Assembly (NCBI RefSeq): GCF_002735305.1
Contig: NZ_PDYG01000010.1
Coordinates: 1 to 44,955 of the forward strand
Direction of reading: 5' to 3'
Length of the DNA: 44,955 nt
DNA from: Agathobacter ruminis
GTDB taxonomy: Bacteria > Bacillota > Clostridia > Lachnospirales > Lachnospiraceae
Shown here: positions 13,180 through 32,683 of the stretch, one piece after another
How positions within the stretch are numbered: the first letter of the stretch is position 1
How the letters are laid out: the number at the start of each line of letters is the position of its first letter
The notes under the pieces: model-generated
What the model saw: only the letters and a program-made list of their open reading frames with translations
Told to the model about the DNA's origin: nothing
Databases searched by the model: none
Program-made: the position numbers and the translations under genes

Positions 13180-13180
13180 G

Positions 13181-13196
13181 TTAGCAATATGGCTAA
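13181..13196 (+). promoter_or_regulatory. Intercistronic stem before the binding-lipoprotein gene
   Basis: TTAGC (13181-13185) and GCTAA (13192-13196) flank AATATG in the short gap before the lipoprotein gene. No T-run follows. Such stems often stabilise the downstream message so that binding protein outnumbers permease. Confidence 0.3.
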
Positions 13197-13214
13197 GCCA
13201 AAGGAGGAAATATA

Positions 13215-14846: not shown

Positions 14847-14867
14847 AGTGTCAAATAATCTGAGAAT

Positions 14868-14894
14868 GGGCCGCGTTTTGTGGCCCTCTCTTTT
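14868..14894 (+). terminator. Intrinsic terminator after the ABC operon
   Basis: GGGCCGC (14868-14874), 5-nt loop, GTGGCCC (14880-14886), then TCTCTTTTT. It may only partly separate the GH5 gene from the transporter. Confidence 0.7.
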
Positions 14895-14951
14895 TGAAAA
14901 ATGGATAGCATGCTATCTATCATCCCAAAAATGGGACGGAAAGGAAATGAT

Positions 14952-16658
14952 ATGAGTAAGTTTAATAATGAATATGTAAAAGGTGTTCTTCGCACTGAGG
15001 GAACACGATTTGTAAATGAAGACGGACAGGAAATTATCCTGCACGGATATGGCACGGCCAACTGGATGAATGTGGAAGGATTTATGATCGGTGAACCACC
15101 GGTGGCTCGCGATATGTTCAAATATATTCTTTTCCCGGGAGAAGGGAAAGATCACAATCCGACCAGATGGTCGACAAGGCGCACGGTAGATCTGACCATT
15201 CGGGAACTTTGCGGACCGAAGTACCTTGAGACCTTCTGGGACCGCTGGGAAGAGAATCATTTGCAGGAGGCAGATATCGCATTGATGGCGGAACTCGGCT
15301 ACAACTGTGTCCGCCTGGTATTGAATGCCAATGCCTTATTATATGAAGAGGAAGGTATCACTTTTAACGAAAAGTGTTTTAAGCGATTATCCAATGCGCT
15401 TGACTGGTGCGAAAAGCATAAAATTTATGCCATTCTCGATATGCATGGAGTAGTAGGTGGCAACAACGGAGCAACCGGTGATTCACTGTTTTGCGAATTC
15501 CCGAGTGTCTTCCTTGATGACGAATCGACCGAACGACAGATCATCCTCTGGGAAGAGATCGTGCGCAGATTTCATGATCGTTGGATTATTGCAGGTTACG
15601 ATTTGATTAATGAGCCGGTATCTTCACCTATTCAGCACAAGTACATTCCACTGTTGGATCAGTACTATGCTGAGTGTATCGAGCGATTAAGAAAAATCGA
15701 TCCGGTTCACATCATGTTTATTGAGCCATCTAAGTTTGCAAGAGATCCTGGATTCTTAACACATCCATTTGATCCGGACTACAACAACTGGGCGATTTCC
15801 ATCCACCTGTACGGTGCTTCTCCGGAAATCAAGGATCTGTATCCATGGCTCTTGAAACGCGAAGAGTTCAATGTCCCACTCTGGCTGGGTGAATGCGGAA
15901 ACAATCCGGATGCAAACGGAATATTCTACGAAATCTGTGCGCATTATGGCATTGCATACACACCATGGGCATGGAAAACAGCAGACAATGGCAAATTCCC
16001 GGTGGGTTCTGTCGGAGCTCCACTTCCGAAGGACTGGGATAAGATTTGTAACTTCCTGACAACCGGTGCGCGTCCGAGCTACAAGGAATCGCAACGCATC
16101 ATGGACGAATATATCGAGAATCTCAAGCTTGAGCATTGTACCGTAAATCGCGACAATGCACGCATCAGCGCAAAGCATCCGAGCTGTACGATTTCAGGTG
16201 TCGGCTATGATATGTGGGATGAGGATGGCAGCAGACATTATGGCACCTGGGAACTTTCGAACTATCTGGATTTCCGTCTCGAGGATCATACCAAGCTGGT
16301 TTGGGCAACCGACAAGCGTTTGCCTTATCCGAAGTTTGCATGGTATGATGATCCAAATGAGTTGCGCTATGATCCGCTGACCGATTTGGCTTTGGAACTT
16401 GCTGAGAATGAGTTTGCCAATTATACGGTTCGTGAGGTTACAAAGGATTGCGCATTGACCATCGAAGGCATCGGTGAAGGCGAGGCCGAGGTGCTTTGCA
16501 ACGGTGCAACAATCGGTACCATCAAATGGGAAAAGGGCGACATCTTAAATCCGGCAAAATCCTCCGTGATGACCATCGCGCCTACGGAAGAAGCCGTTGT
16601 AAAAATCCGTGTCATTCGCGGAACAATTACAGTAAAGAAATTAATTTTCGAAATGTAG
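14952..16658 (+). CDS. Glycoside hydrolase family 5 enzyme, cytoplasmic
   Basis: 568 residues. A GH5 (clan A) barrel with acid/base Glu221 in DLINEP and nucleophile Glu314 in WLGECGNN; both are intact. Other barrel motifs are YNCVRLVLN and AILDMHGVVGGNNG. From about residue 400 a beta-rich C-terminal domain follows. No signal peptide, so it should cleave short beta-glycans after import by the transporter encoded upstream. ATG 14952 follows ACGGAAAGGAAATGAT; the frame extends to 14901 but lacks a binding site there. The exact linkage cut cannot be told. Confidence 0.88.
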   Translation: MSKFNNEYVKGVLRTEGTRFVNEDGQEIILHGYGTANWMNVEGFMIGEPPVARDMFKYILFPGEGKDHNPTRWSTRRTVDLTIRELCGPKYLETFWDRWEENHLQEADIALMAELGYNCVRLVLNANALLYEEEGITFNEKCFKRLSNALDWCEKHKIYAILDMHGVVGGNNGATGDSLFCEFPSVFLDDESTERQIILWEEIVRRFHDRWIIAGYDLINEPVSSPIQHKYIPLLDQYYAECIERLRKIDPVHIMFIEPSKFARDPGFLTHPFDPDYNNWAISIHLYGASPEIKDLYPWLLKREEFNVPLWLGECGNNPDANGIFYEICAHYGIAYTPWAWKTADNGKFPVGSVGAPLPKDWDKICNFLTTGARPSYKESQRIMDEYIENLKLEHCTVNRDNARISAKHPSCTISGVGYDMWDEDGSRHYGTWELSNYLDFRLEDHTKLVWATDKRLPYPKFAWYDDPNELRYDPLTDLALELAENEFANYTVREVTKDCALTIEGIGEGEAEVLCNGATIGTIKWEKGDILNPAKSSVMTIAPTEEAVVKIRVIRGTITVKKLIFEM

Positions 16659-16673
16659 AATGGAGTGCTTTGC

Positions 16674-18047
16674 ATGCAATTATTGGTAAGGGATAAGCAA
16701 TTCTATAAGACTTTGGCAGCGTTTGCGCTGCCAATTTCTCTGCAGTCGCTGATTACGGTTGGTGTCAACATGGCAGACAATGTCATGCTTGGTCAGCTCG
16801 GCGAGAACGAGATGAGTGCCGCAACGCTGGCAAATAATTTTATCAATATTTATCAGATTATGTGTATGGGACTTGGCATGGGAGCCTCTGTCCTTGTCAG
16901 TCGCTTCTTTGGAATGAAGCATCACGAGAATATGAAAAAAGCAGTCAATATCATGTACCGCATGGAGCTTGCATTTGCGCTGCTGTTTTCATTTGCCACG
17001 GCATTGTTCACACCGCAGATTATGTCATTATTTACAAAGGAGACGGATGTTATTTCTGCCGGTGTGGGTTATTTGCTCATCTCAATCCCGTGCTATTTCC
17101 TAAACGGATTCGCGCTTACGACCAGCCTGGTTTTGCGAAGCGTTGGGAAAGCAAATGTGCCGCTGATTTCCACGATTTGCTCCTTCTTTGTCAATATCTT
17201 TTTTAACTGGCTGTTCATCTTCGGTCATCTGGGAGCCCCGCGGATGGGCGTTAACGGCGCCGCCCTTGGAACGGTCATTGCGCGCGTGGTGGAATTTTCC
17301 ATCACAATGGGATTCCTGTTTTTGCGCGACCAAAATATTGGTCTGAGACTTCCGGATTTGACGATGCATGTGCGTGATTTGCTTGGCGAATATGTCCGCA
17401 TTTCCATCCCGGTCCTGATTTCCGATACCCTTTTGGGACTGGGAAACAGTGCAGTCGCTGTAATCATGGGACACATTGGAAGCAGCTTTGTAGCCGCAAA
17501 TGCAATTACCACCATCACCATGCAGCTGGCTACCGTCATCATCCAGGGCATCAGCCAGGCGAGCTGCGCCATCACCGGAATTACCCTCGGCGAGGGCAAC
17601 ATCGAGAAGGCGCAGCGACAGGGAGTTACCTTTGCTACGCTGGGATTCCTCATTGGTGGATTGGGCTGCTTACTGATTACTGCACTAAAAGGAACCATCA
17701 TCGGTTTCTATAAAATAGAACCTGAAACCAGAGACCTGGCGTATCAATTAATGGAAGCAGTCGCAATTGTCATCTGGTTTCAGGCCGCCAATAGCATCCT
17801 CACGAAAGGGACATTACGAGGCGGCGGAGACACCAAATTCCTGATGCTTTTTGATATCATCTTTTTGTGGGTGGCAAGTATTCCGCTTGGTGCATTGGCC
17901 GGCTTGGTCTGGCACTGGAGCGGGTTCTGGATCTTTATCATCCTCAAAATAGACCAGTTTCTGAAGTGCATTGTCTGCATTATCCGGCTCAGGAGCGGGA
18001 AGTGGATTAAAAAAATTTCACCTTTGGGGACGGGGGTTAGCGGATAG
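16674..18047 (+). CDS. MATE family efflux transporter with repeat-encoded tail
   Basis: 457 residues, twelve predicted membrane segments in two halves; the family opening FALPISLQSLITVGVNMADNVMLGQLGE is clear. Such proteins export drugs or metabolites using Na+ or H+. ATG 16674 follows GGAG; a GTG at 16665 is also in frame. The gene follows GH5 by 15 nt, so it may share its transcript. The last residues (ISPLGTGVSG) and the stop come from the palindromic repeat at 18012-18095, so the original C-terminus has been replaced. Confidence 0.88.
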   Translation: MQLLVRDKQFYKTLAAFALPISLQSLITVGVNMADNVMLGQLGENEMSAATLANNFINIYQIMCMGLGMGASVLVSRFFGMKHHENMKKAVNIMYRMELAFALLFSFATALFTPQIMSLFTKETDVISAGVGYLLISIPCYFLNGFALTTSLVLRSVGKANVPLISTICSFFVNIFFNWLFIFGHLGAPRMGVNGAALGTVIARVVEFSITMGFLFLRDQNIGLRLPDLTMHVRDLLGEYVRISIPVLISDTLLGLGNSAVAVIMGHIGSSFVAANAITTITMQLATVIIQGISQASCAITGITLGEGNIEKAQRQGVTFATLGFLIGGLGCLLITALKGTIIGFYKIEPETRDLAYQLMEAVAIVIWFQAANSILTKGTLRGGGDTKFLMLFDIIFLWVASIPLGALAGLVWHWSGFWIFIILKIDQFLKCIVCIIRLRSGKWIKKISPLGTGVSG

Positions 18048-20227: not shown

Positions 20228-21391
20228 ATGGCAATTGAATTATCCAGATTAATAGAAAAAGTTGCTCATATGGACATTACATTAGTAGCAGGAGAAAAGG
20301 GGCTTTCTAATTGTGTAACGTGGGTTCATATGGCAGAGACAGTTGAAGCTTCAGATTTTTTGGATGGAGGGCAGCTGGCTTTTACAACAGGAATAGGAAT
20401 CGGATCGGAAGAAGAACTGTTAAGTTTGGTTAAATCTTTTTATGCAAAGAAAGTAGCCGGGATAATTATCAATATAGGACCTTTTATAGAAGCGATTCCG
20501 GAGGAAGTAAAAAATTTTTGTAATATGTATGATTTTCCTTTATTTGTGGTCCCTTGGAAGGTTCATTTGGCAGAAATTATGCGAATCTGTTGTTTTGCAA
20601 TTACAAAGGATGAACAACGGATGATGGAGACATCAGCTGCATTTAAAAATGCAATTTTCTTTCCAAAACAAGAGGAATTATATGTGGTTCCGTTGTCACA
20701 ACGTTCTTTTCGTGTGAATTGGAAATATAGTGTGACAGTACTGAAATTGAATACGACCGAACCAAATAAGGAAGCACGGTTGGAATCCTTATGTATGTCG
20801 ATGGAGAATATGATTCGTCATAAGAACAAAAATTTTGCAATTTTTGTAAATGAAACAGAATTGATACTGGTGCTGGCAAATATAAAGGAGGAAGCTTTAC
20901 TTGCTGAAGTGAAAGAAATTCAAAGGGATATCAACCGATTTTTGATGGAGGGTGAAAGTGTTTCAATGGGAGTTGGACGCTTGACGAAAAGTGTCAGATG
21001 CCTTTATAAAAGCTATAATCAGGCAAAGGCGATTCAAAGGCTGCAGGCCCGTGGCAAGATCGGAGCTGATAAAGTGTTTTATACCAAGCTTGGAATATAT
21101 CGATTGCTAATGGGCATTGAAGATAAGGAAATTATCAAAGACTATTATCATCATATGCTACAGCCGTTAATAGACTATGATCGGGTAAATCAAACGGACC
21201 TATGCCAAACATTGCAATGCTATCTTAATAATGATGGGAGTGTAAAGGATACGGCAGAAGAATTGTTTGTTCATCGTAATACCGTGAATTATAAATTGAA
21301 TAAGGTGGAAGAAATATTAGAAATAGAAATGTCGTCTCTGGCAGCGAGGACTGAGTTGATTATCGCATTTAAGCTGATGGATATTATGTAG
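20228..21391 (+). CDS. PucR-family transcriptional regulator
   Basis: 387 residues. N-terminal PucR sensory domain (about 1-125; VTWVHMAETVEASDFLDGGQL is characteristic), a middle GGDEF-like/unknown part, and the C-terminal PucR HTH (DTAEELFVHRNTVNYKLNKVEEIL). Family members control purine, allantoin and amine catabolism. Position at the head of the pyrimidine-type cluster makes it the probable local regulator. ATG 20228 follows GAGAGGAATATATT. Confidence 0.9.
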   Translation: MAIELSRLIEKVAHMDITLVAGEKGLSNCVTWVHMAETVEASDFLDGGQLAFTTGIGIGSEEELLSLVKSFYAKKVAGIIINIGPFIEAIPEEVKNFCNMYDFPLFVVPWKVHLAEIMRICCFAITKDEQRMMETSAAFKNAIFFPKQEELYVVPLSQRSFRVNWKYSVTVLKLNTTEPNKEARLESLCMSMENMIRHKNKNFAIFVNETELILVLANIKEEALLAEVKEIQRDINRFLMEGESVSMGVGRLTKSVRCLYKSYNQAKAIQRLQARGKIGADKVFYTKLGIYRLLMGIEDKEIIKDYYHHMLQPLIDYDRVNQTDLCQTLQCYLNNDGSVKDTAEELFVHRNTVNYKLNKVEEILEIEMSSLAARTELIIAFKLMDIM

Positions 21392-21402
21392 AGAAATATT
21401 AG

Positions 21403-21433
21403 GAGGTATCAAGGAATTTGATATCTCTTTTTT
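21403..21433 (+). terminator. Intrinsic terminator after the PucR-type gene
   Basis: A 10-bp stem (21403-21412 with 21418-21427) around a 5-nt loop, then TTTTTT. It separates the regulator from the catabolic genes. Confidence 0.65.
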
Positions 21434-21499
21434 ATTGTGCCGACGCACAATATGATTTGTGTTTGGACTTATTGTCTTTGCCTTTGGAAAAAATATAAT
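21433..21499 (+). promoter_or_regulatory. Operator palindrome and promoter of the catabolic genes
   Basis: TATTGTGC, CGAC, GCACAATA at 21433-21452 is a perfect 8-bp-arm palindrome. It lies 19 nt before a promoter: TTGTCT (21472-21477), 16-nt spacer, TATAAT (21494-21499). The half-site TTGTGCCGA recurs at 24068-24076. Upstream position fits an activator site, most simply for the PucR-type protein. Confidence 0.55.
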
Positions 21500-21548
21500 G
21501 ACAATTATCAAAAGGATGAAAATTTTTAGAAAGGGTGAGGATATAAGT

Positions 21549-22871
21549 ATGACAGGAAAAGAAATTAAAGAAATGCAAAAAAAATATGTACTTCAATCAT
21601 GGAGCAAACAAGGAGCACTTAATCCGATACCGGTGGAGAGAGCGGAGGGTATCTATTATTATGATTTTGATGGAAATCGCTATACAGATATGGCTTCTCA
21701 GTTGGTTAATCTGAATCTTGGATATGGAAATGAGGATATTGCTCTGGCAATTAAGGAACAGGTCGATAAATATTGTTATATTGGTCCAAGTATTGCATCG
21801 GAACCGCGTGCAAAGCTGGCGAAGATGATTATTGATTTACTTCCGGAATCCTTTGGAAAAGTATTCTTTACAAATGCCGGAGCGGATGCAAACGAAAATG
21901 CCATTAAGATTGCTCGTATGTTCACCGGAAGAAAAAAGGTATTCAGCAGATACAGAAGTTATCACGGTTCATCTTTTGGCGCAGGAAATTTAACCGGCGA
22001 ACCAAGACGATATCCATTGGAGCCGGGAATCCCGGGATTTGTAAAATTCTTTGACCCTTATATTTACAGAGAGCCAATTGAATTTGAATCAGAAGAGGCG
22101 GCAACCGGGTATTATCTTGCAAAACTGAGAGAGCAAATTATATATGAAGGTCCGGACAATGTGGCAGCAATTGTGATGGAAACCATTACGGGCTCTAATG
22201 GTGTGATTATTCCACCAAAGGGATATTTACCGGGAGTTCGAAAGATTTGTGACGAATTTGGAATTGTTATGATCTGTGACGAAGTAATGGCCGGATGGTG
22301 CAGAACAGGAAAAATGTTTGCGTTCGAAAACTTTGATGTAGTACCGGATATTGTAACCTTTGCAAAGGGAGTTACCTGCGGCTATGTACAGCTTGGAGGC
22401 GTAGCGATATCAAAAGAAATTGCAGCATATTTTGATGATCATGTCCTTTCATGTGGTCTGACTTATAGCGGACATCCGCTGGCATGCGCAGCAGGTGTTG
22501 CTTGCGTCAATTATTATACAAAAGCCGGGATTCCGGAGCACGTTGTAGAAGTTGGAGCGGTGTTGGCAGAACAACTCGATTCATTCAAGGAGTCACACCC
22601 ATGTGTAGGAGATGTGCGTCATATTGGATTGTTCTCATGTGTGGAACTTGTAAAAGATAAGAAGACAAAGGAACCGTTAGTATCCTATGGTAGAGATCCT
22701 GAGGGAATTATGGGAAAGGTGATTGGCCTTTTGAAAGAACGAAAATTTATGACTTATTCGCATGAAAATATGGTATTCATTTGCCCTCCGTTGATTATTA
22801 CGGAAGAGCAATTAAAGGAAGAACTGATGAAATTAGATGAGGTATTATCGATTGTGGATGAAACATTTTAA
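21549..22871 (+). CDS. Class III PLP aminotransferase, probable beta-alanine transaminase
   Basis: 440 residues. Class III signature ICDEVMAGWCRTGKMFAFENF and the PLP lysine in FAKGVTCGY; the PLP-phosphate region FFTNAGADANENAIKIAR is intact. By context it would move the amino group of beta-alanine to a keto acid, giving malonate semialdehyde, which the next gene could reduce. Equivalent aminotransferases in extended reductive pyrimidine pathways are called PydD. ATG 21549 follows GGGTGAGGATATAAGT; an earlier in-frame start at 21459 would lie within the promoter and is rejected. Omega-amino acids other than beta-alanine cannot be excluded. Confidence 0.85.
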   Translation: MTGKEIKEMQKKYVLQSWSKQGALNPIPVERAEGIYYYDFDGNRYTDMASQLVNLNLGYGNEDIALAIKEQVDKYCYIGPSIASEPRAKLAKMIIDLLPESFGKVFFTNAGADANENAIKIARMFTGRKKVFSRYRSYHGSSFGAGNLTGEPRRYPLEPGIPGFVKFFDPYIYREPIEFESEEAATGYYLAKLREQIIYEGPDNVAAIVMETITGSNGVIIPPKGYLPGVRKICDEFGIVMICDEVMAGWCRTGKMFAFENFDVVPDIVTFAKGVTCGYVQLGGVAISKEIAAYFDDHVLSCGLTYSGHPLACAAGVACVNYYTKAGIPEHVVEVGAVLAEQLDSFKESHPCVGDVRHIGLFSCVELVKDKKTKEPLVSYGRDPEGIMGKVIGLLKERKFMTYSHENMVFICPPLIITEEQLKEELMKLDEVLSIVDETF

Positions 22872-22885
22872 AAAAGAGGTATGAT

Positions 22886-24046
22886 ATGGCACATTTTGCA
22901 ATTCCAACACATGTGGTGATAGGAAGTGAAGCATTGAAAGAAGCTTCGACATATTTGAAAGAATATGGAAACAAGGCGTTGATTGTAACCGGACCACATG
23001 TGTCAAAATCACCTATGATGCAGGAACTGAAGAAATGCTTGGAAAGCATAGAAATCGGTTATTTTGTTTTTGATGAAATCACAGGAGAACCGACAGATAA
23101 GATGATAGAAAAGGGTGTTGAGGCCTATCGTAAGAGCAACAGCCGATTTGTAATTGGAATCGGCGGCGGAAGTCCTCTTGATTCTGCGAAGGCCATTGCG
23201 GTGATGTCGGTGCAAAAGGACGGCTGCAGGATTTCTGATTATATGGGCGTTGAGATTACAGGTCCGATTCCAAAAATTGTAGCAATTCCAACGACATCAG
23301 GAACCGGATCTGAAGCAACAAAGTTTACTGTAATTACTGATACCGAAAGGAACATCAAAATGTTACTGAAAGGGAATTGCCTGATTCCTGATTTAGCAAT
23401 CTTAAATTACGAGTACACAATGGATATGCCAAAGAGCGTGACTGCATCTACAGGATTGGATGCTTTGACTCATGCAATTGAGGCTTATACCTCGAAATTA
23501 GCAAATCCTTTGACTGATGTTTTTGGATTGTCTGCAGTAAAGCGTATTATGAAATATCTTCCGATTGCGTATAAAAACGGACATGATAGTGTGGCAAGGG
23601 AGCAGATGTCGATCGCTGCATTCGAAGCAGGTGTTTGCATAAATAATTCCAGTGTAACATTGGTTCATGGGATGAGTCGGCCAATTGGTGCACTGTTTCA
23701 TGTTCCGCACGGGAAAAGTAATGCCATGCTTTTGGAATGTTGCCTCAGATTTGCGTTAGATGGAACATATTCAAGATTTTCGGATTTGGGCAGAGTATGT
23801 GGTTGCGCAACAGGGGATGATTCAGATCAGGTTGCAGCAGAAAAATTTATCGAGGCAGTTCGGCAAGTTTTGATAGCTTGTGAAATCCCTACACTGAGAG
23901 AGTATGGGATTCATCGGGACGATTTTATTGCCGCGATTCCGAAGATGGCAGAAGATGCGATTGCTTCGAAAAGTCCTTCAAACACCCGAAAGGAAGTAAC
24001 AGAAAAAGATTGTGAAATGCTATATCATCAGCTGATCCGGATGTAA
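22886..24046 (+). CDS. Iron-containing alcohol dehydrogenase, probable malonate semialdehyde reductase
   Basis: 386 residues of the Fe-ADH family. NAD-binding GGGSPLDSAKAIAV and TTSGTGSEAT, metal ligands in GLDALTHAIEAYTS (Asp, His) and HGMSRPIGALFHVPHG (two His) are all present. Fourteen nt after the aminotransferase. By context it reduces malonate semialdehyde to 3-hydroxypropionate, regenerating NAD(P)+; a comparable reductase in the literature is PydE. The substrate is inferred from position. Confidence 0.85.
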   Translation: MAHFAIPTHVVIGSEALKEASTYLKEYGNKALIVTGPHVSKSPMMQELKKCLESIEIGYFVFDEITGEPTDKMIEKGVEAYRKSNSRFVIGIGGGSPLDSAKAIAVMSVQKDGCRISDYMGVEITGPIPKIVAIPTTSGTGSEATKFTVITDTERNIKMLLKGNCLIPDLAILNYEYTMDMPKSVTASTGLDALTHAIEAYTSKLANPLTDVFGLSAVKRIMKYLPIAYKNGHDSVAREQMSIAAFEAGVCINNSSVTLVHGMSRPIGALFHVPHGKSNAMLLECCLRFALDGTYSRFSDLGRVCGCATGDDSDQVAAEKFIEAVRQVLIACEIPTLREYGIHRDDFIAAIPKMAEDAIASKSPSNTRKEVTEKDCEMLYHQLIRM

Positions 24047-24082
24047 TGTGCCAAAGCACAATGACTTTTGTGCCGAGGCAAA
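24047..24082 (+). promoter_or_regulatory. TGTGC-type inverted repeats
   Basis: TGTGC, CAAA, GCACA at 24047-24060 directly after the dehydrogenase stop, then TTTGTGCCGAGGCAAA at 24067-24082. Both relate to the palindrome at 21433-21452, so they may be further binding sites of the same regulator, here ahead of the transporter genes. Confidence 0.4.
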
Positions 24083-24120
24083 TTGCATCGCAAAATCACA
24101 ATCCGTATACTTGCATTATC

Positions 24121-24166
24121 AAAACACAGCAACGGCGCTGAAGAAGTAGCCATGCTGTGTTTTTTT
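24121..24166 (+). terminator. Terminator or attenuator before the ABC transporter genes
   Basis: AAAACACAGCA (24121-24131) pairs with TGCTGTGTTTT (24153-24163), with an inner GGC/GCC stem, and ends in a run of T. It lies 31 nt before the ATPase gene. It either ends the two-gene unit or attenuates the downstream eight genes. Confidence 0.65.
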
Positions 24167-24196
24167 ATTAAATGAGAAAGAAAAGAGGAACCGGTT

Positions 24197-24985
24197 ATGA
24201 GTGAAGCAAGAGAAGTAGAAATCAAAACAAGAAACCTGGGCGTGACATTTCAGGACAATGAAGGAAATGATGTTGCCGCATTGACCGGTGTAAATCTGGA
24301 AATTATGAAGGGTGAGTTTATTGCATTACTCGGACCTTCCGGTTGCGGAAAGACCACCCTGTTGCGTAGCATAGCTGATTTGCAAAAACCGACAGAGGGA
24401 GATGTTCATATCCAAGGAATGACACCAAAGGAAGTAAGGTTGCAAAAGAAGTTTGGATTCGTATTTCAACAGCCGGTATTGTTTGATTGGAGAACAGTAA
24501 AGAAAAATGTGGAACTCCCAATGGAAATCATGGGTTATTCAAAGGGAGAACGCTCTGATAGAGCGGATGAGATGTTAGAAATGGTTGGCTTAAAGGATTT
24601 TGCAAAGCATTATCCAAAGCAGTTGTCCGGAGGAATGCAGCAGAGAGCGAATATTGCAAGGGCTTTTGGATTAGATCCGGATATCTTGTTGATGGATGAG
24701 CCATTCTCGGCGTTGGACGAATTTACAAAAGAGAAATTGCATGAGGATCTCCTTCGAATCTGGAGAGCAACAAATAAGACCATTCTTTTCGTAACACATA
24801 ATATTCAGGAAGGTGTTTTTCTCTCTGACCGAGTTTGTGTCTTATCTCCGCATCCGGGCCGATTGTCAGCAATCGTAGACATTGACTTGCAGCGTCCTCG
24901 TTCTTTGGAAGTGAAAGAGACCGCACATTTTAATGAGTTGGTGGCAAAGGTGCGGGGCAGTTTTGAAGGAGGCAGTGTCTCATGA
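24197..24985 (+). CDS. ABC transporter ATPase (SsuB/TauB/ThiZ type)
   Basis: 262 residues. Walker A GPSGCGKTT, signature LSGGMQQRANIARAF, Walker B ILLMDEPFSALD and the switch His in FVTHNIQE. The group serves small-molecule importers for sulfonates, taurine and thiamine-precursor pyrimidines. Its stop overlaps the next gene by 4 nt. Likely energises pyrimidine uptake for this cluster. Confidence 0.92.
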   Translation: MSEAREVEIKTRNLGVTFQDNEGNDVAALTGVNLEIMKGEFIALLGPSGCGKTTLLRSIADLQKPTEGDVHIQGMTPKEVRLQKKFGFVFQQPVLFDWRTVKKNVELPMEIMGYSKGERSDRADEMLEMVGLKDFAKHYPKQLSGGMQQRANIARAFGLDPDILLMDEPFSALDEFTKEKLHEDLLRIWRATNKTILFVTHNIQEGVFLSDRVCVLSPHPGRLSAIVDIDLQRPRSLEVKETAHFNELVAKVRGSFEGGSVS

Positions 24986-25794
24986 AAAGAAAAATCAAAA
25001 GAATTGTCGAAAAACCATGGTTCTCCTCTATCATTTGGATTTTGATATTAATCGCATTATGGGAAGTAGGAGCTGTGGTGGTATCTAATACGAAGAGAGT
25101 TCCGGAAAACATTTTACCGCATTTGCATCAGATTTTAGGGGCCGCACTTTCAGGTAAAACCGTTACAGCGGACATGACAGCGACGCAGGCTGTGTTGTCC
25201 AGTGCCGGACTTACTTTATTTCGAGCCTTGTTAGGTTTCTTTCTTGGAGCAGTCATCGGTTTTTTGTTTGCTTTGTTGATGAAACTATCCGGTGTGATCG
25301 AAAAGATGCTTTTCCCGTATTTGATGTTGATTCAGTTGATTCCGGTTTTGGGATTGGCGCCGATTGTTTTGGCAATTACAGGTGATATTAATGTGAGTCG
25401 TGTGGTGATTGCATCGATTTTAAGCTTTTATCCGGTGGCAACCAATACTTTAGCCGGTTTTAAATCAGTTGAAAAAGAAAAATATGATTTGATGTTTATT
25501 TACGCAGCAAAACCATATTACATCTATACAAAAGTTTTAATTCCTGCTGCTTTACCGTACTTCTTCACAGGATTAAAGATCGCAGCTCCGATGGCGGTTA
25601 CCGCATCTATTTTGGTGGATACGCTTCAGGGTGACGGCGGATTGGGTTGTCTGTTATCGCAATCATTAAAGCATGCAATGAGTATTTATGTATTTTGGTT
25701 AATCGTATTCTTCAGTGCTTTCGTCGGTATCATTATCAGCAAAATAATTGGTTGGATTGAATATGGAGTATCTCCATGGAAACGGAGGGCTTAA
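24982..25794 (+). CDS. ABC transporter permease 1 (SsuC/ThiX type)
   Basis: 270 residues, about six membrane segments, BPD_transp_1 fold; docking loop KYDLMFIYAAKPYYIYTKVLIPAALPYFFTGL is evident. Overlaps the ATPase gene (ATGA). Unlike SsuBC systems with one permease, two different permease genes follow each other here, suggesting a heterodimer. Confidence 0.88.
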   Translation: MKRKIKRIVEKPWFSSIIWILILIALWEVGAVVVSNTKRVPENILPHLHQILGAALSGKTVTADMTATQAVLSSAGLTLFRALLGFFLGAVIGFLFALLMKLSGVIEKMLFPYLMLIQLIPVLGLAPIVLAITGDINVSRVVIASILSFYPVATNTLAGFKSVEKEKYDLMFIYAAKPYYIYTKVLIPAALPYFFTGLKIAAPMAVTASILVDTLQGDGGLGCLLSQSLKHAMSIYVFWLIVFFSAFVGIIISKIIGWIEYGVSPWKRRA

Positions 25795-25796
25795 GT

Positions 25797-26651
25797 ATGG
25801 AATATGAAGTAAAACTTAAGAAGGTTGGACGAAAAAAGACGCTGCGGCAACGAATAAAGGAAAATAAAAGTTGGCAAAACCTATCTACCTTTATTTGGCC
25901 ATTGGTATTTGGATTGATCATGATAGGACTCTGGCAAAAAGAAGTATTGCACAGTTGGTTTCATACAGACACTTTTACACTGCCGCTGCTTAATAAAATT
26001 GGTGGAATCATGGGAGATATTCACGAAAAGCTTTTGGAGAATACCATTTCAACGGTACAGGTTGCTTTTTGGGGGCTTCTGATTGGAAGCTTATTGGGAT
26101 ATTTGATTGCGGTTTTCGTAGCAATATTTCCGAAAGTCGGGAAGGGCGGATTATCGGTGATAGGAGCTTTTGCTTCGGTTCCGGTGGTCGCTATGGCGCC
26201 GGTGTTTAATAACTGGACTAAGGATGTATCTACAGATGCAGGGTTCCGAAGTATGGTTTCAAAAATCATAGTGGTTACATTAATTTGTGCAGCGGATATG
26301 GGATTGAACGCATACAGAGGTCTTACAGAAATCAAACCCTATTCTGAAGATTTGATGGCAATCTATGCAGCGCCGAAGCGGGTTACGTTATGGAAGCTTC
26401 GTTTACCGAATTCAGTGCCATATGTGTTTACTGCTTTAAAGGTTTCGGTGCCGGCAAGCATTATGACAGCAATTGTTAGCGAATATTTCGCCGAATATAT
26501 CACAGGTGTCGGAAGACAAATTAGAGAGAATATTGTGTTGGCGCAGTATTCTACAGCCTGGGCCTATATCGCAACCGCATGTTTGATCGGTGTGGTGGCT
26601 TATATCATCTTAATGGTGTTACAAAGCATTTGCTTAAAAAGATATCACTAG
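25797..26651 (+). CDS. ABC transporter permease 2
   Basis: 284 residues, same family; docking loop YSEDLMAIYAAPKRVTLWKLRLPNSVPYVF. ATG 25797 lies 2 nt after the first permease's stop and has GGAGGG at good distance, so I prefer it to the in-frame ATG at 25776. It has a basic N-terminal tail and about six membrane segments. Confidence 0.87.
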   Translation: MEYEVKLKKVGRKKTLRQRIKENKSWQNLSTFIWPLVFGLIMIGLWQKEVLHSWFHTDTFTLPLLNKIGGIMGDIHEKLLENTISTVQVAFWGLLIGSLLGYLIAVFVAIFPKVGKGGLSVIGAFASVPVVAMAPVFNNWTKDVSTDAGFRSMVSKIIVVTLICAADMGLNAYRGLTEIKPYSEDLMAIYAAPKRVTLWKLRLPNSVPYVFTALKVSVPASIMTAIVSEYFAEYITGVGRQIRENIVLAQYSTAWAYIATACLIGVVAYIILMVLQSICLKRYH

Positions 26652-26676
26652 ATGTACTTTGAAAGGAGAAAAAATT

Positions 26677-27795
26677 ATGAAGGAAAGAACAAGACGACTG
26701 GTAACTACAACAGCAATTGCATCTGTGGCAATTGGATTGCTTTCAGGATGCGGCGGAAAGCAGGAAACGGGAAATTCAGAATCTGCCGGCGGAACCTCAA
26801 CATCTGAATTGTCTGCAGCGGATATCATTAAGAAGGCAGCAGAGAGCGGACAGGTGGGAAACTGGGGACTTGGAAATGAATATGAGGTATTGGCGCTTCT
26901 ATCAAAGTATGAACTTCCAACTTCGTATTTGAGCCAGGATTTTACAATGGATGGCTTTGATGATAATTCGATTTTGCTTGCATCTGCAATGACATATAAC
27001 GAATTAGGTTTGGTAAAGAACAGTTATGATGGTGGATATGGTTATGGCGATAGCGTCGCATACATCGATATGAATGATGAAGGGGTAGCAATGCTTGAGG
27101 ATAACATTTTCTGTACCAAGTCATTTGCAAAGGAAAATCCGGAAACGGTAGCAGCATTTTTGTATGCCTCATTAAAGGGATGGGAATATGCAGTGGAGCA
27201 TCCGGAAGAAGCCGCTGAAATTTGCTATGAATATGGATCATCTGTTTCACCTGAGCATCAGGCATATATGGCAGAGGAGGTAGCGAAACTTGTTTCGACA
27301 GATATGAGTGGAGCTACAGTCACTGAAATTGGATTCATGGATGATTCGGCAATGGAGCAGACGCTTAATATTGCAAAGCAGTATGTCACATTAGACGATG
27401 CTACTGCAAATAAAGCATTTCAGTCATTGACACTCGATGATATCAGAGATGCAAGCTATTATGAGGCAGCAAAGGCTTCTGATGGAAAGTTTGATATCGA
27501 AAAGAAGTCCGTATCCATTCAGTTGAAGTGGTTACCTGATGCACAGTTTATGGGCTATTATGTGGCTCTTGATAAGGGCTATTATAAAGAAGTCGGATTT
27601 GAAAAAGTGGATATTGTATCCGGTGGTGGAGATATTGCAGAAACAACTGCGGTGAACAATGGAACAGTTGATTTCGGTGTGACATGGGAAACAAATCTTG
27701 CCTCTGCTGACGCAAGTGGTATGGATTTGGTAGAAATCGCACAGATTTTCCAGAGATCAGGATTGGTACTTGTGTATAAGCCGGAAAATTTCTAA
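26677..27795 (+). CDS. NMT1/ThiY-like substrate-binding lipoprotein, circularly permuted
   Basis: 372 residues. Signal peptide with lipobox LLSGC (Cys25). In ordinary NMT1/ThiY binding proteins the mature chain starts with a segment like VSIQLKWLPDAQFMGYYVAL, runs through a cross-over strand IAQIFQRSG..LV, and continues with GNWGLGNEYE...LSQDFTMD...SAMTYNELG. Here that order is swapped: the second part occupies residues 60-265 directly after the lipoprotein linker, and the normal first part is at 278-372, ending the protein at LVYKPENF. All blocks are present once, so the fold should close with new termini at the hinge. It follows the permeases by 25 nt and should bind a pyrimidine or related compound. 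ATG 26677 follows GAAAGGAG. Confidence 0.85.
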   Translation: MKERTRRLVTTTAIASVAIGLLSGCGGKQETGNSESAGGTSTSELSAADIIKKAAESGQVGNWGLGNEYEVLALLSKYELPTSYLSQDFTMDGFDDNSILLASAMTYNELGLVKNSYDGGYGYGDSVAYIDMNDEGVAMLEDNIFCTKSFAKENPETVAAFLYASLKGWEYAVEHPEEAAEICYEYGSSVSPEHQAYMAEEVAKLVSTDMSGATVTEIGFMDDSAMEQTLNIAKQYVTLDDATANKAFQSLTLDDIRDASYYEAAKASDGKFDIEKKSVSIQLKWLPDAQFMGYYVALDKGYYKEVGFEKVDIVSGGGDIAETTAVNNGTVDFGVTWETNLASADASGMDLVEIAQIFQRSGLVLVYKPENF

Positions 27796-27825
27796 GCGAA
27801 CCTGTTTTAAGGAGAGGTGATCGAT

Positions 27826-29193
27826 ATGGATTTATTGATAAAAAATGGAACAATCGTAACATCCACCGGAAGTTTTCCGGCGGATGTCGCAGTCGAAGAC
27901 GGGAAGATTGTCTCTATTGGTAAGGATTTAGGGACAGAAGCAAAGAAGGTTGTGGATGCAACCGGAAAGCTAGTTCTGCCGGGAGCTTTGGATGCACATA
28001 CGCATTTGGCGATGCCATTTGGCGGAACCATTTCTGCAGACAGTTATTTATCCGGTACAAGAGCAGCTGTTTGCGGTGGTGTGACAACGATATTTGATTA
28101 TCCGGTGCAGCATAAGGGTGAGACGATCTTAGGCCTTATCAATTCCAAGAAGGCAGTGTTGGAGGAAGAGGCATGCTGTGATTATGCATTTCATTGTTGT
28201 ATTACCAATTTTAACGATGGCGAAATCTTAGACGAGATGGAGCAGGCGGTTGCAGATGGTATTACAAGTTTCAAATGCTTCCTGGTTTATAAGAAAGAAG
28301 GAATGATGGTTGATGATGGTATGCTGGCCACACTTCTGCTTCGAGCAAAGGAACTGGGCGCAATGATCAATGTGCATGCTGAAAATCCGGACCTGATTGA
28401 TTTAAGAGTTGAACAATATTTAAAAGAAGGGAAGACGGATGCCTGGTATCACTACATGAGTCGGCCGGAATTTGTAGAGGCTGAAGCGGATAAGCGTGTA
28501 GTACATTGGGCGACACATCTGAATGCACCGGTGTATATCGTACATATGGCAGACAAAGAAGGCCTCGAAGCCTGCATTAAGGCTAAGGAGGAAGGACATG
28601 AATTATATGTAGAAACCTGCCCGCAGTATCTGGAATTCACTTGTGATGTGTACAAACGAGAGGATGGACGAAACTTTGTATGTTCGCCGCCAATGAAAGG
28701 ACAGGAAAGTCAGGATGCTCTATGGCTGGCATTAAAGAGTGGATTTATTGACACCGTCGCAACGGATCATTGTCCGTTCCAAAGTTATGAAAAAGATTGG
28801 GGAAAAGATGATTTTACCAAGATTCCGAATGGCTGTGCAGGAGTGGAAAATCTTTATCCGTATATGCTTGATGCAGCCAATTCCGGAAAGATTCCATTTG
28901 AAAAAGTTGTGGAAGTCTGTGCAACAAATGTGGCAAAAATTTTCGGATGTGAGAATAAGGGCGAGATTGCTGTTGGTAAGGATGCAGATATTGTGATCTA
29001 TGATAAGGATAAAGATTTTACAATCAGCGTCGACAATATGCATTCCGATTACGATCACACAATTTGGGAAGGAAAGAAACTTCACGGTTATCCGGTTCAG
29101 ACTTATTTGCGCGGAGAACTTGTATATGACAATGGTGCATATGTTGGAAAACCAGGAACAGGAAAATATGTAAAGAGAATTCCCAAGAAGTAA
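27826..29193 (+). CDS. Dihydropyrimidinase / D-hydantoinase family
   Basis: 455 residues. Amidohydrolase metal site complete: HTH in DAHTHLAMPFGG, carboxylated Lys in SFKCFLVYK, His in INVHAENP and VYIVHMADK, Asp in VATDHCPF. It opens dihydrouracil to N-carbamoyl-beta-alanine. ATG 27826 follows AAGGAGAGGTGATCGAT; a GTG nine nt upstream lies inside the binding site. Called PydB or HydA in related pathways. Confidence 0.9.
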   Translation: MDLLIKNGTIVTSTGSFPADVAVEDGKIVSIGKDLGTEAKKVVDATGKLVLPGALDAHTHLAMPFGGTISADSYLSGTRAAVCGGVTTIFDYPVQHKGETILGLINSKKAVLEEEACCDYAFHCCITNFNDGEILDEMEQAVADGITSFKCFLVYKKEGMMVDDGMLATLLLRAKELGAMINVHAENPDLIDLRVEQYLKEGKTDAWYHYMSRPEFVEAEADKRVVHWATHLNAPVYIVHMADKEGLEACIKAKEEGHELYVETCPQYLEFTCDVYKREDGRNFVCSPPMKGQESQDALWLALKSGFIDTVATDHCPFQSYEKDWGKDDFTKIPNGCAGVENLYPYMLDAANSGKIPFEKVVEVCATNVAKIFGCENKGEIAVGKDADIVIYDKDKDFTISVDNMHSDYDHTIWEGKKLHGYPVQTYLRGELVYDNGAYVGKPGTGKYVKRIPKK

Positions 29194-29244
29194 AAATAAA
29201 TGTGCAATTTGCAAGAATAAAGAGAAGTAAAGGAGGAGAGAAAA

Positions 29245-30741
29245 ATGGCATGTGAAGCGAATAAATGTCTGTTATGTCATGATGCTCCCTGTTCAAAAGC
29301 TTGCGATAAGGGATTAGAGGTGGCAAGTATCATACGCTCCATTCGATTTGAGAACAAAACCGGAGCGATGAGAAAATTAGGAGAAACAGATGTATGTAAA
29401 GACTGTAGCGCACCATGTATGGATGCCTGCAGGAAAAGCGATATCGATGAAGCAATTAAGATTCCAACAATGTTTGCGCAGTTAAGAAATGAAAAGATTC
29501 TGGTGCCGGAGCAGAGTGTGGACTTGTCGATAGATTCTTGTGGTGTACATTTTGAAAATCCTTTTTTACTTTCTTCTTCTGTTGTAGGTAGCAATTACGA
29601 AATGGTTGCAAAAGCCTTTGAATTAGGTTGGGCAGGAGTGGCATTCAAGACGATAGGTTTATTTCAACCGAATGAAGTTTCGCCGAGATTTGGAGCTTTA
29701 GAGAAAGAAGATAATCCTTTTATTGGTTTTAAAAATATTGAGCAGATTTCGGATCATAGTTTGGAGGAAAATTTAGGTTTCCTAAAGCGGCTGAAAAAAG
29801 AATATCCGACCAAAGTGATTATCGCCTCGATTATGGGACAAAATGAAGAGGAATGGACAAAACTTGCGGGACTTATGGAAGCGGCCGGCGCTGATATGAT
29901 TGAGTGTAATTTCTCTTGTCCGCAGATGGTGGGAGAAGGACTAGGAAGCGATGTGGGAACAAATCTGGAGTTGGTGGAGAAGTATACTGCGGCCACAAGG
30001 CGTGGTACAACGCTCCCGATATTGGCAAAGATGACCCCAAATATTACAAAGATGGAAGAACCGGCTGCAGTGGCGCTAAAAGCCGGGGCAGATGGACTTG
30101 CTGCCATTAATACGATTAAGAGCATTATGAATGTGGATTTGAAACATTTTGGATCAACGCCAAATGTGCAGGGAAAGTGTTCCGTAGGAGGATATTCAGG
30201 AAAAGCAGTTAAGCCAATTGCCCTTCGATTTATCAATGATATGAAAAAGGATGAGAGGACAAAGAATGCTCCAATTTCCGGAATGGGAGGAATAGAAAAC
30301 TGGAAAGATGGTGCGGAATTCATTGCGATGGGGTGTGAAACCTTGCAGGTAACAACAGCAGTTATGCAATATGGTTATCGCATCATTGAGGATATGAAGG
30401 AGGGATTATCGGATTATTTAGTTCAGGCGAATATGTCAAGCGTGAAAGAGCTGGTTGGAGTTGCGCTTGGACATGTGGTTGATGCAGGGGATTTGGATCG
30501 GGATACAATCGAATATCCGCGCTTTGTGCACAAAAATTGTGTGGGTTGCGGAAGATGTTATATTTCCTGTTTCGATGGTGGCCATCAGGCAATTGTGATG
30601 GATGAGAAAACACATAAGCCTATGATGAATCCGAAAAAATGTGTAGGCTGTCACTTGTGTATGCTGGTATGTCCGACGGAATCTATTACACCATCAGGAA
30701 TTCGAATTCCGAAGAAAAAGCAAGAAGAAATGGCATCATAA
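29245..30741 (+). CDS. PreA-type dihydropyrimidine dehydrogenase with extra N-terminal Fe-S domain
   Basis: 498 residues. The N-terminal part (1-75) has two four-cysteine groups (CLLCHDAPCSKAC and CKDCSAPCMDAC), like the N-terminal domain of PreT or mammalian DPD. A dihydroorotate-dehydrogenase-like FMN barrel follows (about 90-410) with the catalytic Cys in NFSCPQM. The C-terminus is a two-[4Fe-4S] ferredoxin (CVGCGRCYISC, CVGCHLCMLVC). It would reduce uracil or thymine to the dihydro form. The FAD/NAD(P)H-binding PreT module is absent here and nearby, so the electron donor is open; ferredoxin is plausible. ATG 29245 follows AAAGGAGGAG. Confidence 0.88.
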   Translation: MACEANKCLLCHDAPCSKACDKGLEVASIIRSIRFENKTGAMRKLGETDVCKDCSAPCMDACRKSDIDEAIKIPTMFAQLRNEKILVPEQSVDLSIDSCGVHFENPFLLSSSVVGSNYEMVAKAFELGWAGVAFKTIGLFQPNEVSPRFGALEKEDNPFIGFKNIEQISDHSLEENLGFLKRLKKEYPTKVIIASIMGQNEEEWTKLAGLMEAAGADMIECNFSCPQMVGEGLGSDVGTNLELVEKYTAATRRGTTLPILAKMTPNITKMEEPAAVALKAGADGLAAINTIKSIMNVDLKHFGSTPNVQGKCSVGGYSGKAVKPIALRFINDMKKDERTKNAPISGMGGIENWKDGAEFIAMGCETLQVTTAVMQYGYRIIEDMKEGLSDYLVQANMSSVKELVGVALGHVVDAGDLDRDTIEYPRFVHKNCVGCGRCYISCFDGGHQAIVMDEKTHKPMMNPKKCVGCHLCMLVCPTESITPSGIRIPKKKQEEMAS

Positions 30742-30776
30742 ATGAATGAGAAACTAAGGAAAGAAGGTAATTAGAT

Positions 30777-32039
30777 ATGTACAAATGCAGTTTAGAGAGA
30801 ATGACAGATAAAATCAAAACCTTTTCTACATACGGAGACGCAGGACATGGAGGAATCACCAGATATTCTCTGTCACCGGAAGCAATTCAGGCGAGAAATG
30901 AATTCATCAAGAGAATGGAGTCAATAGGAGCAATCATCGAGGTGGATGATGTGGCAAATATCTATGCAACTCTTCCGGGAACAGACCCGGACGCAAAGAG
31001 AATTGTAATGGCTTCCCACTGCGATTCGGTGAAAAATGGCGGAAATTACGATGGAATTCTAGGTGTTATGTCTGCTATGGAAGTTTTAGAAACAGTTGCG
31101 GAACAGGATATTCCGCATAAACATCCTTTGACAGCGATGATATGGACCAACGAAGAAGGCTCCTTATATCCACCTGCAATGATGTGTTCCGGAATTGTTT
31201 GTTATGATTATTTGCCGGAAGATATTCGTGTGAAATTTAAATATGAGGATATGATGAATTCCAAGAGTATTCTCGATCAGACCAGTACATTTGGTGATGC
31301 ATTAAAGGCTTCCGGATTTATGGGGGACAAAAAATATCGTCTATCTCCGGACAACTATTTGTATATGTTTGAAACACATATTGAGCAGGGACCGATTTTA
31401 GAGGATGCCGGAAATGATGTGGGTGTTGTAGATTGTGTACTGGGTATGTTTAATTACAGATTACGGTTCTATGGTCAGACTACACATGCGGGAACTTTCC
31501 CTATGCCAAAGAGAAAAGATGCTTTTTTGGCAGCGTCTATGGCTCTGACTTATCTTCATGAGAAAATCGACAAGCTTGGGTATTCTGATTTGGTATATAC
31601 AACCGGCGAGGTGGTTTGTCATCCGTGTGTTCATACTTGTGTACCGGATTTCTTTGATTTTTCATTTGATGCACGTCATGAGGATCCAAAGGTGCTTGAA
31701 CAGGTGCTGGCAATTGTGAAAGGTTGTGCAGATAAGGTATGGGCAGGATGTACTTGCGAGGTGGAAAAGGCATGGAATCGTGATACGGTATACTGGGATA
31801 AGAAGTTGGTTTCTTATGTGAAAGAAGCAGCAGAAGAGTGTGGCGTATCGCATCAATATATCCATTCCGGAGCAGGACATGATGCACAGTTTGCATCATA
31901 TATGCTTCCTACTACTATGATTTTTGTGCAGTCAAAAGATGGATTAAGCCATTGCGAGCCGGAGTATTCTTCTCCGGAACATTGTACGGAAGGCGCAACC
32001 GTAATGTTGAATGCAGTTTTAAAAGCAGATGCTGAGTAA
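30777..32039 (+). CDS. M20-family amidohydrolase, probable beta-ureidopropionase
   Basis: 420 residues of the hydantoinase/carbamoylase (HyuC/AllC-like) group. Metal-site motifs ASHCDSVKNGGNYDGILG, WTNEEGS and HIEQGP, with late His in GAGHDAQF. By cluster context it hydrolyses N-carbamoyl-beta-alanine to beta-alanine, CO2 and ammonia (PydC role). Allantoate amidohydrolase is the main alternative from sequence alone. Thirty-five nt after the dehydrogenase; ribosome site AAGAAGG. Confidence 0.85.
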   Translation: MYKCSLERMTDKIKTFSTYGDAGHGGITRYSLSPEAIQARNEFIKRMESIGAIIEVDDVANIYATLPGTDPDAKRIVMASHCDSVKNGGNYDGILGVMSAMEVLETVAEQDIPHKHPLTAMIWTNEEGSLYPPAMMCSGIVCYDYLPEDIRVKFKYEDMMNSKSILDQTSTFGDALKASGFMGDKKYRLSPDNYLYMFETHIEQGPILEDAGNDVGVVDCVLGMFNYRLRFYGQTTHAGTFPMPKRKDAFLAASMALTYLHEKIDKLGYSDLVYTTGEVVCHPCVHTCVPDFFDFSFDARHEDPKVLEQVLAIVKGCADKVWAGCTCEVEKAWNRDTVYWDKKLVSYVKEAAEECGVSHQYIHSGAGHDAQFASYMLPTTMIFVQSKDGLSHCEPEYSSPEHCTEGATVMLNAVLKADAE

Positions 32040-32056
32040 CGCAAAAAGGAGTGCCT

Positions 32057-32683
32057 ATGAACTATATCATTACCATCGCCAGAGGATTCGGAAGTGGCGG
32101 AAAAGATATCGGAATGCGTTTGTCAAAAGAACTGGGCATTCCCTGTTACGATCGCCAGATTTTGACAATGGCGTCAGATCAAAGTGGAATTGATGAGAGC
32201 ATCTTTGTAGAGAACGATGAAAAGTTACGAGGAAAATATATTGCGAACTTCCTTAGAAAAGTTCCGGTTACCGGTGTTGTTGAACCATGGGACAGAGCGT
32301 TCGTATCTGATGTTAATGTATTTAATGTGCAAGCGGATATTATTCGAACATTGGCATCTACAGAGAGCTGTATCATCATTGGAAAATGTGCAGATGATAT
32401 TTTGCGCGATAGAAAAAATGTAATCAGTATTTATGTGGAAGCCCCGCGACATGCATGTGTGAAATCAATCACCGAGAAAATGCGCGTGTCGCCGGAGCGG
32501 GCAGCAAAACTCATTGTAAGCACAGATAAATATCGGGCAAATTATTACAGCTATTATACCGGAGGGAAGAAGTGGACAAACCCTACGAATTATGATTTGG
32601 TTCTCAATAGTGACCGAATTGGAAGAGAAAAATGCGTTCAAATCATAAAAGAATATATCAAAATTAAGTTCTCTCAAACTTAA
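32057..32683 (+). CDS. Cytidylate-kinase-like protein
   Basis: 208 residues. N-terminal NYIITIARGFGSGGKDIG is the P-loop region of the cytidylate-kinase-like family, and PCYDRQIL follows as in that family. About 10 residues shorter than typical Cmk. Last gene of the cluster, 17 nt after the amidohydrolase, so it may phosphorylate a pyrimidine nucleotide or another substrate. It is probably not the housekeeping Cmk. ATG 32057 follows AAAAAGGAGTGCCT; GTG 32051 overlaps the binding site. Confidence 0.75.
   Translation: MNYIITIARGFGSGGKDIGMRLSKELGIPCYDRQILTMASDQSGIDESIFVENDEKLRGKYIANFLRKVPVTGVVEPWDRAFVSDVNVFNVQADIIRTLASTESCIIIGKCADDILRDRKNVISIYVEAPRHACVKSITEKMRVSPERAAKLIVSTDKYRANYYSYYTGGKKWTNPTNYDLVLNSDRIGREKCVQIIKEYIKIKFSQT

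Follow-up and report, generated by a model that had tools for sequence, protein, structure and literature searches.

The stretch of DNA analysed here (the window, 44,955 nucleotides of a contig of Agathobacter ruminis, a member of the Lachnospiraceae) carries a forward-strand cluster in which a regulator, an aminotransferase and an alcohol dehydrogenase are followed by the ATPase and the two permeases of an ABC transporter, the gene of a substrate-binding lipoprotein (SBP), and three enzymes of pyrimidine breakdown (Table 1). The amidase probably acts as an N-carbamoyl-beta-alanine hydrolase. The cluster as a whole (20228-32683) resembles a complete reductive pyrimidine route and also holds a cytidylate-kinase-like gene. 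This gene has homologues at 22 of the 40 related loci, including one weak match that lies on the opposite strand. At its N-terminus the PreA-like enzyme is extended by some 90 residues that contain two cysteine-rich motifs; over residues 3-64, PF14691, the Fe-S domain of dihydropyrimidine dehydrogenase, gives a weak match of 23.4 bits, short of its cut-off of 25.8. The scan of the cluster genes turned up no gene of the PreT type, and PreA may therefore take its electrons from a donor other than NADPH. A promoter scan gave 22 hits against a shuffle mean of 24.6 and a terminator scan gave 7 against 6.8; neither is an excess. Elsewhere in the window, positions 7001-18000 have a higher G+C content (0.42-0.50) than the flanks and a mostly lower GC skew. 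They hold a two-component system, an ABC permease, a binding-protein gene and a GH5 cellulase-family gene, and are perhaps an acquired glycan-utilisation cluster.

Table 1. Genes of the cluster and parts of the binding protein, in window coordinates
Feature	Position	Strand	Basis or remark
PucR-family regulator	20228..21391	+	PF07905, PF13556
Class-III aminotransferase	21459..22871	+	PF00202
Iron-containing alcohol dehydrogenase	22886..24046	+	PF00465
ABC transporter ATPase	24197..24985	+	PF00005
ABC permease 1	24982..25794	+	PF00528
ABC permease 2	25776..26651	+	PF00528
Circularly permuted NMT1-type substrate-binding lipoprotein (P0001), 372 aa (very probable)	26677..27795	+	Uninterrupted ORF; profile and rotation evidence
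Signal peptide with lipobox LSGC, lipid-anchor Cys25	26677..26751	+	Sequence
Linker and new N-terminal helix, residues 26-57	26752..26847	+	Replaces the SPADLKGKK-like segment of unpermuted orthologues
Block B, residues 58-243 (GNWGLGNEYE ... SAMTYNE ... IDMNDEGVAMLEDN)	26848..27405	+	Second part of the ordinary chain, now first
Junction linking the former C- and N-termini, residues 244-275	27406..27501	+	
Block A, residues 276-368 (VSIQLKWLPDAQFMGYY ... SGLVLVYK)	27502..27780	+	First part of the ordinary chain, now last
New C-terminal tail PENF	27781..27792	+	
Dihydropyrimidinase (D-hydantoinase type)	27817..29193	+	TIGR02033, 489.8 bits (cut-off 393.25)
Dihydropyrimidine dehydrogenase PreA subunit	29245..30741	+	NF006183, 563 bits (cut-off 335), residues 92-482
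Hydantoinase/carbamoylase-family amidase	30777..32039	+	TIGR01879, 320.6 bits (cut-off 204)

The binding protein belongs to the NMT1 family (PF09084, 98.8 bits against a cut-off of 20.5). Instead of one co-linear profile match, it gives two stretches in swapped order, the better of which places residues 289-370 on profile positions 2-82. The same swap is visible when the organism's own genome is scanned, where profile positions 159-216 lie upstream of positions 2-82 in one reading frame; the only other NMT1 match in this genome, on a different contig, is co-linear (profile 5-216). Against a solved structure of the family, PDB 4nmy, a phmmer search aligns residues 276-359 with chain positions 5-88 and residues 134-247 with positions 186-295, and a profile built from 33 permuted sequences shows an identical swap. 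A hidden Markov model made from seven unpermuted orthologues matches the mature protein first with profile positions 131-316 (147 bits) and then with positions 10-117 (108 bits), each block occurring once. The blocks are thus single, their order is swapped, and the new ends are neighbours in the parent chain, as is expected of a natural circular permutant. A first-pass annotation had proposed exactly this arrangement, and its account of the sequence holds: the swapped order is borne out by Pfam, 4nmy, the orthologue model and the rotation scan described below, the limits and motifs that it gave for the blocks are correct, and KPENF and the segment before GNWGLG, which it named as the new ends, do adjoin in the normal chain. 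It had also suggested that two swapped matches to a single template would support the idea, and such matches were obtained with both the NMT1 profile and 4nmy. Its description of a proper signal peptide and an intact transporter operon is likewise confirmed, since the protein has a lipobox at Cys25 and is preceded by genes for an ATPase and two permeases, the features of a lipoprotein receptor.

Relatives with the ordinary order (block A before block B) exist and make a direct comparison possible. The census found 14 distinct normal-order loci, and one more, L125, was found afterwards. The spacer between A and B has 14-15 residues in 12 of the 14 (e.g., GINSPADLKGKK), and the NMT1 match is single and co-linear in the three unpermuted orthologues tested. 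In the seven unpermuted relatives that were examined closely, identity to the permuted chain is 31-44% for block B and 39-55% for block A. The motifs SAMTYNE and DMN-x(3)-VAMLED recur in the four nearest of them (L046-L049); three of these also have GNW-x-GGNE, and L047 has GSW in its place. The more distant L050-L052 have looser versions of the SAMTYNE and DMN motifs rather than the motifs proper. A lipobox is found by a loose pattern in 13 of the 14 unpermuted loci (L066 is doubtful and L085 fails), including all 12 orthologues that were kept in the tree described below.

HMMER splits the match into two domains at any rotation, and therefore the effect of rotating the chain was scored by end-gap-free global alignment (BLOSUM62) over all rotations of the mature protein. 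Rotation raised the alignment score by 165-238 against the seven unpermuted relatives, and the best rotation started at residue 247-278 for all seven. In the control, 20 shuffled sequences scored against L047 alone showed a mean gain of 15 and a maximum of 21. Taken with the profile evidence, this indicates that the window protein is very probably a circularly permuted orthologue of a type II binding protein of the NMT1/THI5 family.

The swapped order is a conserved family trait and not a singleton. A scan of public-genome contigs yielded 40 loci, of which 39 have block B before block A; the fortieth is a contig-end fragment with block A alone. Thirty-eight aligned permuted relatives are 62-98% identical to the window protein, and L034, the thirty-ninth, which is cut by a contig end, is 78% identical over its length. 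The alignment of 39 sequences has more than 100 invariant columns. Across 39 permuted relatives the junction between the blocks has 32-38 residues and block A is followed by 1-10 residues, and a loose lipobox pattern is found in 38, the exception being cut by a contig end. The loci come from Lachnospiraceae, Eubacterium, Sporobacter, Defluviitalea, Ruminococcus, other Clostridia and several spirochaetes. The spirochaete loci are metagenome-assembled. Cultured isolates with the permuted order are Acetitomaculum ruminis DSM 5522, Eubacterium oxidoreducens DSM 3217, Sporobacter termitidis DSM 10068, [Eubacterium] cellulosolvens LD2006 and Defluviitalea phaphyphila Alg1.

The trait was also surveyed in genomes of the same family, class and phylum. 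Of 397 genomes from the window's own family, 15 have a match at 1e-20; these represent 15 genera, and all matches are near-full-length and permuted. One of them (G738:C1:2508261-2509403) contains an in-frame TAA and may be a broken copy or a sequence error. In a class sample, 7 of 291 genomes match at 1e-20, of which five are near-full-length and permuted, one (G1014) appears to be permuted and is split across two contigs, and one (G1020) has the normal order. In a phylum sample, 82 of 398 genomes match at 1e-10, with a full permuted match in the window's genome and G246 only; the remaining matches are partial or split.

This distribution bears on the objection that the order is an artefact of assembly or of a local rearrangement. 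The window's genome is indeed a draft of 134 contigs, but the same order recurs at 39 loci on separate public contigs, those of cultured isolates among them, and no direct or inverted repeat of at least 14 bases lies within 26400-28000. The probability of an artefact is therefore practically nil, and the explanation was rejected on the strength of the isolate genomes. The same search of 26400-28000 left no repeats of this length as scars of the permutation event. The annotation had named normal-order closest homologues combined with an assembly rearrangement as the finding that would count against it; this case is excluded, and the homologues of like order that it proposed to look for are those just described.

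Gene order around the SBP is also conserved. At 37 of the 40 loci the SBP gene is immediately preceded by the genes of the ATPase and the two permeases, and at the other three the contig starts at or within the SBP gene. Wherever the contig extends, the SBP gene thus sits directly behind the permeases (37 of 37). At one locus, that of Defluviitalea phaphyphila (L025, 4950-5755), permease 2 is split into two open reading frames, possibly by a frameshift or a sequencing error. A dihydropyrimidinase gene follows directly downstream at 38 of the 40 loci; of the two without it, one contig ends after the SBP gene and one locus has PreA next. A homologue of the aminotransferase is found at 30 of the 40 loci. 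The regions around 12 unpermuted genes were fetched, and all 12 have the order ATPase-permease-permease-SBP with homologues of dihydropyrimidinase and PreA within about 8 kb. In L075 and L119-L123 the pyrimidine genes are near at hand and about 60-75% identical, while in L074, L076-L079 and L124 they lie some kilobases off and are about 38-44% identical. Given that permuted and unpermuted proteins share one operon type, they appear to be orthologues that belong to a single type of transporter. To judge from the operon, they would also share a role, and the permutation most likely happened in place within the operon.

It could be argued that the permuted protein has taken on another role, such as that of a regulator or sensor, or that it is decaying and no longer binds the substrate of the transporter. 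One of the 15 family matches (G738) reads through a stop codon, as might be expected of a gene in decay. Set against this are the many invariant columns of the alignment, the unbroken association of the gene with the permeases, and the fact that the sole other NMT1 match in the genome is encoded on a different contig. Loss or change of function is thus quite unlikely. In all likelihood the protein serves an ABC importer as its functional lipoprotein receptor, and the importer feeds reductive pyrimidine degradation.

The relationship between the two chain orders was examined in trees for which the permuted sequences had been turned back to the ordinary order. In a careful tree of 58 rows, 38 permuted proteins form one clade (98/96), and the normal-order orthologues form a weak clade (85/61). 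A quick first tree of 60 rows had the permuted clade nested among normal orthologues; L066 and L085, which had very long branches in that tree, were dropped before the careful one. As their removal turned the normal orthologues into a weak clade, we do not claim nesting within any particular normal group. Sequences with a masked stretch (L024) or contig-end cuts (L034 and L040) and duplicate loci were excluded from the SBP trees, and 8 of 20 more distant NMT1 proteins served as the outgroup. A quick tree of the concatenated ATPase and permeases, from which L010, L015, L016 and L018 were additionally excluded, shows the same split, with 33 and 12 rows. Long-branch warnings were issued for both SBP trees and for the transporter tree. 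All 8 outgroup proteins match the normal-order profile co-linearly, and for this reason the ordinary order is taken as ancestral. The permuted clade covers Bacillota and Spirochaetota, and horizontal transfer is likely.

A different origin for the swapped chain would be the fusion of a truncated binding protein with the N-terminal part of another NMT1 gene, which would give the two blocks different ancestors. The block scores favour a common one. Among the non-permuted proteins compared, which come from a whole-profile search only, both blocks score best on the same nine (L046-L049 and L080-L084), block A at 105-114 bits and block B at 148-159 bits, and these nine proteins sit in the same operon type. 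A fusion that followed duplication of a paralogue would nevertheless look alike. Fusion of unlike blocks is very unlikely, and the permutation of a single ancestral protein is the reading followed below.

Predicted structures were compared for the window protein, modelled from 33 permuted sequences only, and for the unpermuted L047, modelled from 22 sequences. The best of five AlphaFold models of the permuted protein has a pLDDT of 87.6 and a pTM of 0.87 (pLDDT spans 87.6 to 69.2 over the five), and the model of L047 has values of 88.5 and 0.86. The moved block consists of the same nine elements, E-H-H-E-H-E-H-E-E, in both models (residues 254-343 in the permuted and 20-110 in the unpermuted protein), and in the permuted model block B is preceded by a new helix. 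Despite the reordering, the shape is apparently kept, with a predicted two-lobed fold; the closed fold that the annotation had set as a further test is likewise a prediction. Foldseek aligns structures by chain order. With the unpermuted model, the first 21 matches are NMT1/THI5 structures (4nmy at E 7.7e-23, TM 0.77 and rmsd 3.1), whereas with the permuted model no NMT1/THI5 entry occurs in the best 50 of 761 matches, and the best match is Bacillus subtilis OpuAC (E 2.7e-6, TM 0.41/0.51, rmsd 12.9). This contrast between the two models is the behaviour expected of a permuted chain. Weighing against the reading are the range of pLDDT over the five models and the low TM and high rmsd of the OpuAC match.

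How the order may have changed can be outlined as follows. The ancestor would have had the ordinary order A-B, which survives in the orthologues. Most likely, tandem duplication and trimming inside the operon then broke the chain between the GLVLVYK strand and the segment that precedes GNWGLG, while the former ends became linked by the junction of 32-38 residues. The signal peptide and lipobox would have been retained at the new N-terminus or acquired there anew. No A-B-A or B-A-B intermediates occur among the census loci, so this route is one that we infer. Going by type II topology, the first strand to follow the passage of the chain from lobe 1 into lobe 2 is presumably GLVLVYK. The cut would accordingly fall within lobe 2, just past the first lobe crossing, which would leave both hinge crossings in place and shift the lipid anchor from lobe 1 to lobe 2. 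Ligand-induced closure would proceed as in ordinary binding proteins, and the receptor would hand the ligand over to the ATPase/permease complex encoded upstream.

The cluster on balance favours a pyrimidine base, uracil or thymine, as the ligand. Judging by the gene families, PreA would reduce the pyrimidine, the dihydropyrimidinase would open its ring and the amidase would remove the carbamoyl group, and the aminotransferase and alcohol dehydrogenase could take beta-alanine to 3-hydroxypropionate. We found no report of a pyrimidine ABC receptor in such clusters in the open-licence literature; the passages of PMC11036815 on preT, preA and hydA of a gut butyrate producer describe no adjoining ABC importer.

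In some anaerobic gut and rumen bacteria, a probable nutrient receptor has thus been reordered while relatives of the original order persist in the same type of cluster. This amounts to a clean natural experiment in protein rearrangement: it suggests that evolution can reorder the chain of a probably working transporter part, and the recognisable unpermuted orthologues in the same operon type provide matched pairs for testing the effects of chain order. Since co-linear profile searches see permuted proteins as two separate pieces, more of them may have been overlooked.

Circular permutation in ABC binding proteins had been called rarely described by the first-pass annotation. Rare it is, but precedents have been published (PMC4990184, PMC2395249). 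No report of a permuted NMT1 protein was found in the open-licence literature, and given that other permuted binding proteins were already known, the window protein is a new, independent case rather than the first of its kind. PMC4990184 describes Tp0684 (MglB-2) of Treponema pallidum as a circularly permuted type I glucose-binding lipoprotein, classed as 'Type Ic / Cluster Bc'. Like the window protein, it is a lipoprotein ABC receptor with a natural circular permutation; further points of likeness are that the first three strands of its N-lobe have moved to the C-terminus and that its relatives occur in treponemes and Gram-positive bacteria, many of them gut-dwelling (PMC4990184). It differs in having a type I fold, in belonging to a glucose/galactose family, and in that the permutation adds a fourth crossing. 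Its moved part is 13% identical to the unpermuted protein (PMC4990184), whereas in the window protein both parts are plainly related to theirs. The window family gives NMT1-family Pfam matches only, which sets it apart from the type I sugar-binding proteins to which TpMglB-2 belongs. The authors of that work considered a fusion origin for their protein and suggested that the permuted order may adapt it to membrane anchoring (PMC4990184). In the present case the unpermuted orthologues are anchored too (12 of 12 in the tree), so anchoring alone is not the reason for the permutation.

A closer parallel in fold is offered by the OpuAC family, which, like the NMT1 family, is of type II (for background on type II binding proteins, see PMC9732360). 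CPSARST, in the results given in PMC2395249, detected circular permutation among glycine-betaine-binding proteins (2b4l, 1r9l and 1sw1) and also between glycine-betaine- and molybdate-binding proteins; entry 2b4l corresponds to OpuAC of B. subtilis (PMC2861598). Among 61 genomes of the same phylum surveyed for PF04069, at least 7 proteins, in 4 genomes, have the later part of the profile first and a split at about profile positions 108-120. We take B. subtilis OpuAC to be the permuted member among the three structures. Six permuted OpuAC-family proteins (L112-L117) end soon after a GLVVP strand (GVVVP in L116) and a DSIEDL-like segment and begin just before a GID or GIE strand, while the unpermuted L118 is continuous through GLVVPKYVDIDSIEELKANADKFDGKIIGIEPGAG. 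One genome, G005, has four permuted OpuAC-family copies beside several unpermuted ones and would be a good set for the study of repeated permutation or duplication. The order is swapped alike in the two families. Judged by motifs and by the order of elements, the cut in the window protein, which lies between SGLVLVYK and GNWGLG, falls in the matching stretch, roughly one helix ahead of the OpuAC cut. In OpuAC proteins the cut follows the SIEDL-type segment and lies between the GLVVP strand and the GID/GIE strand, whereas in the window protein it precedes the corresponding segment; family and ligand differ as well.

This resemblance might mean that the window protein inherited its order from permuted glycine-betaine-binding proteins of the OpuAC type, with no independent event. 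In favour of inheritance are the nearly identical cut site and the OpuAC structures that lead the Foldseek matches of the model (best 50 of 761). At E 0.001, however, PF09084 matches 33 of 33 aligned permuted-family sequences and PF04069 matches none of them, nor does PF04069 match anything in the window's genome; among the relatives found, those closest in sequence are unpermuted orthologues of the NMT1 family from the same operon type, and the OpuAC family has unpermuted members of its own (L118). Inheritance from OpuAC proteins is highly improbable, and membership in that family was rejected on the absence of PF04069 matches. Because the window family matches NMT1 and not OpuAC, the likeness between the two looks like convergence. 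It is tempting to speculate that lipid-anchored binding proteins of type II have repeatedly been permuted at the edge of lobe 2 as an adaptation, with the OpuAC and NMT1 families each arriving independently at almost the same cut. Such a step might move the tether from lobe 1 to lobe 2, spare the hinge and the ligand site, and alter how the receptor is presented to the transporter; this proposal is tentative and rather doubtful. As permuted and unpermuted orthologues serve the same type of transporter, an effect of the tether is directly testable.

Within the NMT1 family, both blocks of the window protein match 4nmy, a thiamin-binding protein of Clostridium difficile, and 3ix1, a FAMP-binding protein of Bacillus halodurans, and yeast THI5 is a further NMT1/THI5 relative matched by sequence. 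Unlike the window protein, all three are unpermuted and, according to their titles, concern compounds of the thiamin pathway; the names of those solved members of the family that were found refer to thiamin or its pyrimidine precursors. The unpermuted orthologues (L047 of G367, L046, L048, L049 and L080-L084) resemble the window protein in lipobox, NMT1 family and motifs, in the order ATPase-permease-permease-SBP and in the dihydropyrimidinase and PreA genes nearby, and differ from it in the A-B order of the chain.
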